A DNA stretch of 64,000 bases from positions 62,001-126,000 of the forward strand of contig PMSV01000008.1 of NCBI GenBank assembly GCA_003168265.1. The letters are read 5' to 3'. Under the pieces are notes generated by a model. That model was not told the origin of the DNA. It was given only the letters and a program-made list of their open reading frames with translations, and made no database searches. Positions 49,819 through 52,686 of this stretch are shown here, in pieces (position 1 is the first letter of the stretch; each line of letters opens with the position of its first letter). This DNA is from Chitinophagaceae bacterium. GTDB taxonomy: Bacteria > Bacteroidota > Bacteroidia > Chitinophagales > Chitinophagaceae. The translations under genes were made by a program, and so were the position numbers.

Positions 49819-49951
49819 ATTTGATGATTATAAGATGATAAGAATTGTCCTGATAACGGTAATAAAATTATCCTTTCAGCGGACGGATGTCAATAACCCA
49901 AATGGACTATTTATCCTGATCTAAATACATTATATTTAATCACAGTTGTCT

Positions 49952-50076
49952 GACTAAGTTATAAGAAATAATGGGTATAAAAAAGGGTAATTCCGGGAAC
50001 TAACCTATATGGTTGATTTTGGGTTACTACACACAAAATAGAACCACGAGTAAAGTTAAAAAATTCTCCGGACAGC
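49952..50076 (-). repeat. 125-bp conserved intergenic element, copy A
   Basis: About 86% identical to 52533-52657 in opposite orientation (17 mismatches and two one-base indels by my count). On the minus strand it contains GGTTAGTTC and its partner GAATTACCC as a stem with one mismatch, followed by six T. It lies upstream of the NHL gene (133 bp) and downstream of DUF4386. Confidence 0.85.
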
Positions 50077-50092
50077 CGGTATTATTTTTCGA

Positions 50093-50157
50093 CTATTCAG
50101 TGAGATTATTCAGTGAGATTATTCAGTGAGATTATTCAGTGAGATTATACAGTGAGA
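50093..50157. repeat. Five tandem copies of a 13-bp repeat
   Basis: Unit TTATTCAGTGAGA: three exact copies (50106-50144) flanked by CTATTCAGTGAGA (50093) and TTATACAGTGAGA (50145). Intergenic. No spacers, so not a CRISPR array. Could be a variable-number repeat or a protein-binding array. Confidence 0.85.
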
Positions 50158-50377
50158 TAATACAAGAGGTGGGCCGTAGCCGGCTGCAGGTTCCAGGAAA
50201 AAAGGCGGAATAACAGCTTCTATCAAAATAATTTTTAAATTCATTTGAATGCTGCCAATTAAGAGTGCAAAATGTGAATATAATAACTGAACGCAACCAA
50301 AATAATAGTGCGATTTATGTGACTCTTAAAGAATTAGGAAACGGCGTTCAATATATTAGGCTATTGTGGCTAACTCT

Positions 50378-51094
50378 TCAATGGGAGCCGTCAGTTCCAT
50401 TGATTTCTTCCCTTTTCTTGATGCGCCATCCCTTAATAAGCAACCAGAACATAAATATCAATTCGCCAAAATAGGTGATTGTAATAAAATTCAAATTAGC
50501 CTTGGGATATAAAAATGGCTGCAGGGTACTAGTCAAATAACCTAAACCGGCAATGATCAGGCAGATCCCTATGATCCTGGGAATATAGCCGGATCTGAAA
50601 ACGAGATAACCGACCATAATCAGGTGAAAGGCAAAAAAGAAAAATCCAAAAGACCATTCATCCCGAAAAGCAAATAATGATTGCATGACCAGGCTATGCA
50701 GATATTCGGGAGAATAGACGGCCAAATGATCCGCCGGATGTATCAAATGCAAGACCGTAACCAGATGAACGGTTGCTACCAGGCTGATCACTGCATACAC
50801 CAGTTGGAACCAGGCTGTCAGCAGAGAGAGGTTTTCATTGACAGGTTTTAATAATCCATAAAGCGCCCATGCGACAACGATGTCGCAAATAAAATTAAAC
50901 AGGTAGCTCAGGATGCCGGAAATAAAGAGCGTCTCGTGATCTGCTATATTTTTAAATGTTATAGCAGCATTTCCCGGATCTACCAACTTGCCATATACCA
51001 TAAATTCGGCATAAGGAGAGGTTGACATAAGCAGTATACCGATCCCTGCAATAAGCCCAAATGCATTCAGCGATATTTTGCTCCTAGAGTCCAT
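50378..51094 (-). CDS. DUF4386 integral membrane protein
   Basis: 238 aa with six to seven transmembrane helices. AFGLIAGIGILLMSTSPYAEFMVYGKLV, LFISGILSYLFNFICDIVVAWALYGLLKPVN and AWFQLVYAVISLVATVHLV match the DUF4386 family. No function is known. A short tail (IKKREEINGTDGSH) follows the last helix. It lies between the two inverted copies of the 125-bp element. Confidence 0.88.
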   Translation of the reverse strand: MDSRSKISLNAFGLIAGIGILLMSTSPYAEFMVYGKLVDPGNAAITFKNIADHETLFISGILSYLFNFICDIVVAWALYGLLKPVNENLSLLTAWFQLVYAVISLVATVHLVTVLHLIHPADHLAVYSPEYLHSLVMQSLFAFRDEWSFGFFFFAFHLIMVGYLVFRSGYIPRIIGICLIIAGLGYLTSTLQPFLYPKANLNFITITYFGELIFMFWLLIKGWRIKKREEINGTDGSH

Positions 51095-51420
51095 GCTGGA
51101 TAAATTTCACAAAGGCATGGCTTCAAGATAGGTTATTTCCAAAGACCTTTAGTAAAATATAAGCTCGTTTTGGCTATGAACGAAGACCATTCTTGCACAA
51201 CATGTCTCTTTATTCTGCTCTTAATCCATCATTTCAGAAAGCATACAACAAGGAACTTGTGCAAAAGCGGGCAAAAATCTGAACTCCCCATGCGGGAGTG
51301 TTTATCAGATTAGGATAAAAAAACCACTCTGGCATTGGTAACCTTCGGTAACCTGCATGCCGCCGCCCGACGGAGCATAAGTGGTACTTAATTTGATAAT
51401 CTTACTGAAACAGAATCAAT
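51095..51420. other. Intergenic region between divergent genes
   Basis: Contains a small hairpin ACTCCC/GGGAGT (51283-51299) and a direct repeat GGTAACCT (around 51340-51355). No gene or exact TAnnTTTG box found. It should hold the promoters of the DUF4386 and the outer-membrane protein genes. Confidence 0.4.
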
Positions 51421-52179
51421 ATGAAAAAAGCAGTCATTTTTTTTAATGTGCTTGTTTTTGGCAATTTAAGCGGAGCGAAGGCTCAATTTAATAAAGGAAC
51501 GCTGATGCTGGGCACGACGATTGGGTCGACTGCCTATTCTTCTGCGAACAGCGACTACGATTATGTCAATGGCGAGGTGCGCAATACAGGGACGAAAACC
51601 TACAGCTTCAGCATAGGGCCTCAACTGGGCATTTTTGTGGCAAGAAACGTGGTAGTCGGAACGTCCGTCGCCTTTTCGACGACGACCACTAATACCAACA
51701 CCACAATAACCAATGCTTCCAGTACCACGGGGACAAAATCTTCCACTACTAATTATACGATTGGCCTTGGCCCTTTTGTTCGCTATTATTTTGCCAATGC
51801 ATTTGCAAAGAACCTTTTTTACCTGCAGGTCAATGGCAACGTGGCTTCGGGAAGTGGGAGCAGTTCGGGAAGCGGGTTTACAACGACGAACACCGATCAG
51901 ACAAGCGGTTCGGTCACCGGCATCTTCAACTGGAATGCCGGCGGGAGCATCGGGCTGGAACATTTCTTTGACAAACACGTGGGAATGGACGTATCACTGG
52001 GTTATTTGTATTCTTACGCCAGGAGTGGCAATAAAAATACGACGGTCACTACAACTGACGCTTCGGAGACCGTCACTACCAGTACCAGTAATTACAACCT
52101 GACCACGGGTACCAACGGCATTACCTTCGCTGTGGGTTTCCATTGGTTCCTTTGGCAGGAACCGGGTAATGGGCATTGA
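51421..52179 (+). CDS. Outer-membrane beta-barrel protein, Thr/Ser-rich
   Basis: 252 aa with signal peptide (MKKAVIFFNVLVFGNLSGAKAQ). Strands LMLGTTIGSTAYS, YSFSIGPQLGIFVARNVVVGTSVAF, IGLGPFVRYYFA, WNAGGSIGLEHFFDKHVGMDVSLGYLYSYA and ITFAVGFHWFLW form an eight-stranded porin-like barrel (OmpA/OMP_b-brl type). Loops are unusually rich in Thr/Ser/Asn, which suggests exposed loops. The partner or ligand is unknown. Confidence 0.85.
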   Translation: MKKAVIFFNVLVFGNLSGAKAQFNKGTLMLGTTIGSTAYSSANSDYDYVNGEVRNTGTKTYSFSIGPQLGIFVARNVVVGTSVAFSTTTTNTNTTITNASSTTGTKSSTTNYTIGLGPFVRYYFANAFAKNLFYLQVNGNVASGSGSSSGSGFTTTNTDQTSGSVTGIFNWNAGGSIGLEHFFDKHVGMDVSLGYLYSYARSGNKNTTVTTTDASETVTTSTSNYNLTTGTNGITFAVGFHWFLWQEPGNGH

Positions 52180-52686
52180 GCCTGACCAGGGTTAGCAGGA
52201 TGGCCGATATCAGAATAGTCATCCCTTGATGGGAAGATAGTGGAATTTTTTCTACAGATTTACTCATCCATCCTGCATGTGGATGCTCATTCAAACTAGG
52301 ATAAAAAAATCAGGCTATTGGCGCATTTGATGATATACGATCACGGGAATGCATTACTGGATTTTTGTTTTCTGTTCATTCTCTATTTACGCTTGCATAT
52401 TCGAACAGCGCCTGCATTGAAAGCACCTGTTAAAAAATATGATACGCTGATAAACAGTACATTATAAACAGCTACCTGAATTTTCTCTGTAGTTTAGAAG
52501 CACAACAGCCTTGATGGGCCCATACGGAATACGCTATCCGGAGATTTTTTAACTTCACTCATAGTTCTATTTTGTTTGTCGTAAACCAAAATTAGCCATA
52601 TAGGGTAGTTCCGGGGACTGCCCTTTTTTTATACCCTCTCTTTCTTATAACTTAGTCGGAGAAGAGTAATTTAAAAATCTACCACG
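52180..52686. other. Intergenic region with copy B of the conserved element
   Basis: The left 350 bp show no gene. The right part is the conserved element 52533-52657 with its terminator-like hairpin, 29 bp before the acyl-CoA ligase start. Confidence 0.6.
52533..52657 (+). repeat. 125-bp conserved intergenic element, copy B
   Basis: Inverted copy of 49952-50076. It contains GGGTAGTTC/GGACTGCCC, a 9-bp stem with 3-nt loop CGG and two G-U pairs (52602-52622), followed by eight T. Relative to copy A, several stem positions change but keep pairing. It ends 29 bp before ATG 52687, so the hairpin could act as an attenuator for that gene or as a terminator of the upstream gene. Confidence 0.85.

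Follow-up and report, generated by a model that had tools for sequence, protein, structure and literature searches.

The Inverted Repeat Pair in the Window

The DNA analysed here, referred to as the window, is a 64,000-nucleotide stretch of contig PMSV01000008.1 (GenBank assembly GCA_003168265.1) of a Chitinophagaceae bacterium. It harbors two inverted copies of a repeat, which are identified below, by comparison with relatives, as fossil left ends of an insertion sequence of the IS4 family. Copy 1 occupies positions 49952–50076 on the forward strand, and copy 2 occupies positions 52533–52657 on the reverse strand. The flanking genes encode an NHL repeat protein, a DUF4386 protein, an outer-membrane-like protein and an acyl-CoA ligase, which have no common function; the outer-membrane-like protein has no match in Pfam.

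Between 49952–50076 and the reverse complement of 52533–52657, 107 of 126 alignment columns were identical (85%), so the inverted repeat described in the original prediction is real; wider segments around both copies were also aligned with MAFFT. In a whole-genome blastn search, the copy-2 segment recovered copy 1 (E 5.3e-34, 82%) and two partial copies on another contig, C21, at 52027–52090 (91% over 63 query positions) and at 157691–157804 (76%). The sequence GACTAAGTTATAAGAAA occurs exactly twice in the window, with no occurrence elsewhere at up to three mismatches, while shuffled sequences give an expectation of 0.13. The sequence ACAAAATAGAAC is also found twice in the window, and 5 of 100 shuffles likewise give two matches within one mismatch. 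A five-unit tandem array of 13 bp each (TATTCAGTGAGAT, 98% matches) adjoins the inner end of copy 1 at 50094–50158.

Both copies contain a hairpin followed by a run of T that points outward, as had been proposed. In copy 2, GGGTAGTTCCGGGGACTGCCC is followed by T7 on the forward strand (52603–52630), and in copy 1, GGTTAGTTCCCGGAATTACCC is followed by T6 on the reverse strand (50005–49979). The three stem changes said to keep pairing are present; a fourth, at pair 3, had been missed, and it turns the G-C of copy 2 into a U/C mismatch in copy 1. The hairpin energy is −5.4 kcal/mol in copy 1 vs. −13.9 kcal/mol in copy 2. Folding of the whole copies was uninformative (z-scores from +0.57 to −1.83, depending on the strand), since the block is a module at the DNA level and its two hairpins are separate. 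No Rfam family was found in the window at the gathering threshold; matches to sbrA and mir-320 were below it and were taken as chance.

Identity of the Copies

A blastn search over 58 genomes gave matches only in the source genome and in one congener. Of 33 genomes in the genus, eight were matched at E ≤ 0.01 by a sequence-only model of the four genomic copies, in several cases weakly; three of the weak matches (L021, L017 and L018) were chance-like and were not used. In locus L015, the repeat is followed by a hairpin and then by the ATG and the beginning of a DUF4372-type transposase gene, and the congener's copy (L008) likewise continues from the repeat through the hairpin into the start of such a transposase. 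A miniature inverted-repeat transposable element (MITE), which was the first reading of the copies, was dropped once the congener's copy was seen to continue into the transposase. Three transposases of the relatives scored 205–215 bits against NCBIfam NF033592 (cut-off 115) and exceeded the cut-offs of both PF14294 and PF01609.

The element is widespread. With the congener's transposase as a query, 45 of 394 genomes of the family matched at E ≤ 1e-20. A search with 16 aligned transposases gave matches in 32 of the 395 genomes of the class at E ≤ 1e-40. A scan of named genomes yielded 79 loci among the best 80 kept, mostly from Bacteroidota, including Flavihumibacter fluminis, Chitinophaga niastensis, Niabella aurantiaca, Pedobacter cryoconitis and Flavobacterium frigoris; among these best 80, two locus titles lie outside this phylum, one from Chlorobiota and one a metagenome-assembled genome of Hyphomicrobiales.

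From these relatives, 75 left ends were collected in three sets. The first set (n = 22) comprised L015 and 21 of 30 loci where a left end was found by motif search (nine gave none). The second (n = 11) comprised those of 27 loci that were assigned by eye, from the transposase start, to the same subgroup, the other 16 being other DUF4372 groups or cut. The third (n = 42, fresh elements) remained from 79 loci after 10 were skipped (five with a short upstream region and five without a start fitting the rule) and 27 near-duplicates were dropped. Both ends were measurable in 48 of the 75 elements, with a median length of 1407 bp and terminal repeats alike at 10–14 of 14 positions (for example, CACTATTGTCCGACTAAAAT / ATTTTAGTCGGACAATAATG). 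Target duplications of exactly 9 bp were found in 19 of these 48 elements and of exactly 8 bp in two; the end fitting scored repeat and duplication jointly, which favours finding both. The transposase frame was open for at least 380 codons in 63 of 75 elements. Near the right ends of the relatives, at about 100 bp from the terminus and directly after the transposase stop, lies another conserved inverted repeat (GGGGGTACT-CCCC), which is possibly the terminator of the transposase mRNA.

Homology of the window copies with the relatives starts at the terminal repeat, at 49941 and 52668, slightly outside the bounds of the repeat given above. Copies 1 and 2 can thus be identified by sequence comparison as fossil left ends of an IS4-family insertion sequence with a transposase of the PF14294/DUF4372 + PF01609 type (NF033592). 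What is left in each copy is the terminal repeat of the left side, the leader and about 12 codons from the start of the transposase gene, with the remainder of the element lost. Both copies had been described as non-coding, which holds for most of their length; the inner ~30 bp are dead transposase codons. The features of the two copies are listed in Table 1.

Table 1. Features of the two left-end copies in the window (TIR, terminal inverted repeat)
Feature	Position	Strand	Basis
Copy 1, degenerate left end of IS4-family insertion sequence	49941..50077	+ (transposase sense +)	Alignment with relatives' left ends continuing into the transposase gene
Left terminal repeat, copy 1, CACAGTTGTCTGACTAAGT; in relatives CACTATTGTCCGACTAAAAT	49941..49959	+	Sequence, relatives' ends
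Hairpin, copy 1, outward, antisense to transposase, one broken pair	49985..50005	-	Sequence, folding
T6 run after copy-1 hairpin	49979..49984	-	Sequence
Decayed putative sense -7 box TGATTTTG, copy 1 (consensus TAnnTTTG)	50014..50021	+	Sequence; consensus in available parts of PMC7366714, PMC9723704
Dead start codon, copy 1: ACG in place of relatives' ATG	50046..50048	+	Alignment
Putative antisense box TAACTTTA, copy 1, in first transposase codons	50051..50058	-	Sequence; family pattern
CGGACAGCC, copy 1, transposase codons x-G-Q-P, TIR-like, inverted orientation	50069..50077	+	Alignment
Copy 2, degenerate left end, insertion sequence as for copy 1	52533..52668	- (transposase sense -)	blastn, alignment
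Left terminal repeat, copy 2, TACTCTTCTCCGACTAAGT	52650..52668	-	Sequence, relatives
Hairpin, copy 2, outward, antisense to transposase	52603..52623	+	Folding
T7 run after copy-2 hairpin	52624..52630	+	Sequence
Putative sense -7 box TAATTTTG, copy 2	52587..52594	-	Sequence
ATG of dead transposase, copy 2 (kept); frame lost about 7 codons later	52560..52562	-	Alignment
Putative antisense box TAACTTCA, copy 2	52550..52557	+	Sequence; subgroup variant
Predicted antisense RNA stretch, copy 2, 69 nt, if still transcribed; two-hairpin fold	52562..52630	+	Inference and fold

Remnants in the Source Genome

No whole transposase matching PF14294 was found in the source genome, and the congener's transposase protein had no match there. 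The alignment of 16 transposases recovered two fragments with stops in the source genome. No transposase match lies within the window, both copies ending ~30 bp into the gene, and no complete element with transposase and right end was found in the source genome. Its scraps comprise four left ends and three right ends. In congener G013, contigs C204, C223 and C326 all break at the left end, as is expected of a multi-copy element collapsed in assembly, and the sole copy reaching the transposase carries stops.

The original prediction considered an attenuator or a riboswitch-like leader of the NHL repeat protein or acyl-CoA ligase gene. This option failed: the inner end is transposase coding sequence and the copies are remnants, the downstream genes are unrelated, Rfam gave no match and right-end scraps (three) are about as common as left-end ones (four). 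A leader of transposon origin could also have been co-opted later to regulate the NHL, acyl-CoA ligase and other genes. All four genomic copies do precede a gene, with the T-run of the hairpin facing it; such a shared orientation arises by chance in 1 of 8 cases, and with unrelated genes downstream, a broken stem pair in copy 1 and four left scraps against three right ones, co-option appears very improbable. Domestication of the left ends was tested with left-end and right-end models built from the same five relatives. The left-end model gave 12 matches in 6 of 33 genomes and the right-end model gave 11 in 7 of 33. The numbers are similar; therefore, there is no sign that left ends were retained for neighbouring genes. 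No evidence was seen that the window copies, which are decaying remnants without a transposase, regulate their neighbours. A lone left-end relic in another congener (L013 in G024, about 1501–1599) lies upstream of a sigma-factor-like gene, with its inward promoter box facing the gene, and is a possible case of promoter capture.

Of the options first proposed, a small mobile repeat came nearest, the copies being the end of a mobile element. One could imagine a MITE-like unit of ~130 bp, running from the left terminal repeat to CGGACAGCC and mobilised by a full-length relative. Homology of both copies ends within about 10 bp of CGGACAGCC, this motif resembles the inverted terminal repeat core, and GGACAG within it is fixed at the nucleotide level. 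Against this, neither copy has a target duplication when cut at CGGACAGCC or a true right end, and the other two genomic copies end elsewhere, giving three different lengths among four copies. Relatives with 9-bp duplications use the true right end, and plain decay suffices since right-end scraps are present. Such a unit is, hence, considered unlikely. Nor is it at all probable that the pair forms a composite transposon, two outward left ends carrying the DUF4386 and outer-membrane protein genes. The ends are inverted and 2.7 kb apart, the terminal repeats are outermost and an AT-rich site lies on each side, but the outer flanks (ATATTTAAT and ATTTAAAAA) are not a 9-bp duplication, no transposase was found in the window and the outer-membrane protein has relatives in four further genomes among the 33 of the genus.

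Hairpin in the Left Ends of Relatives

All three sets of left ends have a hairpin between the terminal repeat and the leader. Its outer edge lies at a nearly constant distance from the start codon (median 64 nt, interquartile range 61–68, range 58–84), and its sequence varies between elements. The best leader hairpin has a median energy of −14.4 kcal/mol, compared with −5.8 kcal/mol in shuffles, and energies of −8 kcal/mol or lower were obtained for 74 of 75 elements vs. 57 of 225 shuffles. The selection on pairing suggested originally is upheld at the family level, since the covariation persisted in the larger alignment. At least six U among the eight nucleotides after the stem were counted on the antisense strand in 44 of 75 elements, compared with 4 of 75 for the sense strand. 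The subgroup closest to the window has several stems in which G-U pairs form on the antisense RNA, at positions where the sense RNA would have A/C mismatches, and which carry a UUCG loop; other subgroups have the opposite G-U strand bias.

Promoter Boxes and Start-Codon Repeat

In Bacteroidota, the −7 element of promoters read by the main sigma factor has the consensus TAnnTTTG, as given in the available part of PMC7366714. In most elements, transposase codons 2–5 read nnY-AAA-nnT-Ann, the reverse complement of TAnnTTT[GA]. The pattern [CT]AAAnnTA was found exactly at +6 to +13 in 28 of 42 fresh elements and at 25 of 14,500 positions of the same phase. A TAnnTTT[GA] box on the antisense strand within the first 30 nt of the transposase gene was present in 35 of 42 fresh elements and in 39 of 1,506 control windows downstream in the same genes. 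The third base of codon 4 is T in 32 of 33 cases, where the amino acids predict 14.2, and the first base of codon 5 is A in 33 of 33, with at least seven different amino acids at each of the two codons. Among 184 non-filtered starts of open reading frames used as a control, the box occurred in six, all of which were transposases of the same group missed by the filter. According to the part of PMC9723704 available, the −7 box of Flavobacterium psychrophilum lies at −12 to −5; with the same placement here, antisense transcription would begin opposite base 1 of the transposase gene.

Sister transposases were also inspected. An antisense TAnnTTTG-like box within 25 nt was present in 4 of 12 (L091, L092, L093 and L095), which form one sister subgroup with a transposase N-terminus ending in LFSQ. 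In the remaining sister transposases, without the LFSQ motif, the box was found in none of eight.

A second inverted repeat has one arm around the inward −7 box and the other directly upstream of the start codon. Pairing of an element's own arms compared with swapped arms gave −10.1 vs. −5.1 (n = 22), −8.1 vs. −4.8 (n = 11) and −8.1 vs. −4.5 (n = 42), and the real value was matched in 0 of 2000, 0 of 2000 and 0 of 5000 permutations, respectively.

The motif GGACAG lies at about codons 8–12 of the transposase gene in the relatives, corresponding to 50069–50077 in the window. Within the first 17 codons, 72 of 86 Gly-Gln pairs are encoded by it, as against 6 of 24 elsewhere, and its sequence is an inverted match to the core of the terminal repeat. 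The subgroup whose ends read ACCGAC mostly has CGGTCA at this position. GGACAG is possibly an internal transposase-binding site located upstream of the antisense promoter.

Proposed Control Module

The conservation of these features in the relatives suggests a compact control module at the left end. The transposase mRNA, with a leader of about 20–25 nt, would come from a weak inward promoter with the −7 box TAnnTTTG. The other strand would have a promoter of its own, with a −7 box overlapping transposase codons 2–5, from which an outward RNA would start opposite the start codon. From the box, the spacing, the hairpin and the U-run combined, this antisense RNA is predicted to be about 70 nt long, to be complementary to the whole leader and to end at the hairpin and U-run. 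By pairing with the transposase mRNA, it would block translation in the manner of RNA-OUT in IS10. The start-codon repeat would act at another level: in a transcript entering the element from the flanking DNA, pairing of the arms would sequester the start codon; mRNA from the inward promoter would begin within the inverted repeat and leave the codon accessible. Similar protection against read-in transcripts is known from IS10 and IS50. No mention of it was found in the available part of PMC4265352. The predicted antisense RNAs of both window copies fold as two hairpins.

The promoters, the antisense RNA, its termination at the hairpin and the repression are predicted from sequence, and several observations weigh against the module. 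A −33 element is evident on neither strand; none was found in Flavobacterium johnsoniae either, according to the available part of PMC7366714. Within the subgroup closest to the window, the antisense box reads TAnnTTC[AG], which departs from the consensus (first set, 7 of 22), and the strict inward box TAnnTTTG occurs in 13 of 22, 5 of 11 and 25 of 42 elements of the three sets. For only 6 of the 11 elements of the second set does the start-codon repeat rank among the top three. Of the 75 hairpins, 29 have a strong U-run on neither strand and two have it on both. Shuffles also favour the antisense U-run (19 of 225 vs. 1 of 225 on the sense strand); base composition accounts for part of the bias and not for all of it. 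The sense hairpin is better by at least 2 kcal/mol in 8 of 75 elements, and the antisense one in 26 of 75. The window copies themselves are too decayed for a test of function, copy 1 having lost the start codon and one stem pair.

Mobile elements are commonly shielded by terminators, and the hairpin could be an insulator against outside transcription, or a general terminator, with no dedicated antisense RNA. The eight hairpins clearly better on the sense strand, and the four sense U-runs, fit this explanation. The excess of U-runs on the outward strand (44 vs. 4) would stop outgoing and not incoming RNA polymerase, and an insulator would account for neither the TAnnTTTG-like box on the antisense strand nor the nearly constant spacing of 64 nt; it is judged rather unlikely. 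The repeated terminator of the original prediction was partly correct, in that the hairpin has the look of a terminator for an outward antisense RNA belonging to the element itself.

For a whole group of insertion sequences from Bacteroidota, control by an antisense RNA of the RNA-OUT kind is likely, together with hiding of the start codon and a TIR-like site in the transposase gene. The joint claim that the window copies are fossil left ends of such an element and that the left end is an antisense control module is advanced with high confidence. The window copies are ordinary transposon debris. Left-end fossils still transcribing the ~70-nt antisense RNA could conceivably act in trans against an incoming element of the same kind, making the debris an RNA-based memory. 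Copy 2 retains a strong outward hairpin, the T7 tail and the antisense box of its subgroup; copy 1 is damaged, left ends are not preferred to right ends (4 vs. 3), and pairing of the copy-2 RNA with the leader of the nearest congener yields −6.3 kcal/mol vs. −40.1 kcal/mol for a perfect match. A memory of this sort is, accordingly, highly doubtful.

Comparison with Known Systems

The comparative evidence points to a widespread IS4-family group, mostly from Bacteroidota, with an antisense brake of the IS10 kind written in promoter boxes of the type used by the phylum. If this is true, antisense control of transposition is not peculiar to a few proteobacterial elements. Such RNAs would also be one candidate source for the antisense transcripts across transposase genes that the consulted part of PMC4555090 mentions in gut metatranscriptomes and that lack an explanation, and repeated intergenic hairpins in Bacteroidota would become recognisable as transposon ends instead of being mistaken for riboswitches. 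No description of the antisense arrangement for this element group was found in the open-access papers searched, most subscription papers lying outside the search. Seven loci including relatives gave no Rfam match of any kind, and no known antisense RNA family was found in them at the gathering threshold.

With respect to element structure, the relatives resemble the NF033592 (PF14294 + PF01609) elements of the IS4 family in a size of ~1.4 kb, imperfect terminal repeats and 9-bp target duplications; the window differs in having left-end remnants only. Antisense control of transposases is of a known kind, exemplified by IS10 and ISPpu9, and the module predicted here is well supported at the level of the family. 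In ISPpu9 of Pseudomonas putida, an antisense RNA and leader structure also control the transposase (Asr9, Ssr9 and a structured 5′ untranslated region, as outlined in the available part of PMC8450116). ISPpu9 is a different element from a different host, and the likeness concerns the kind of control.

A close parallel in layout is the RNA-IN/RNA-OUT system of IS10. In the available part of PMC5006887, RNA-OUT is given as 69 nt long, ending at nt 47 of IS10 and blocking translation of the transposase; the stretch predicted for copy 2 is also 69 nt long. In both systems the antisense RNA starts near the transposase start and ends near the end of the element, here by prediction. The two differ in sequence, and the Bacteroidota elements have promoter boxes of the phylum's own type and an extra inverted repeat, with diverged arms, across the inward promoter and the start codon.

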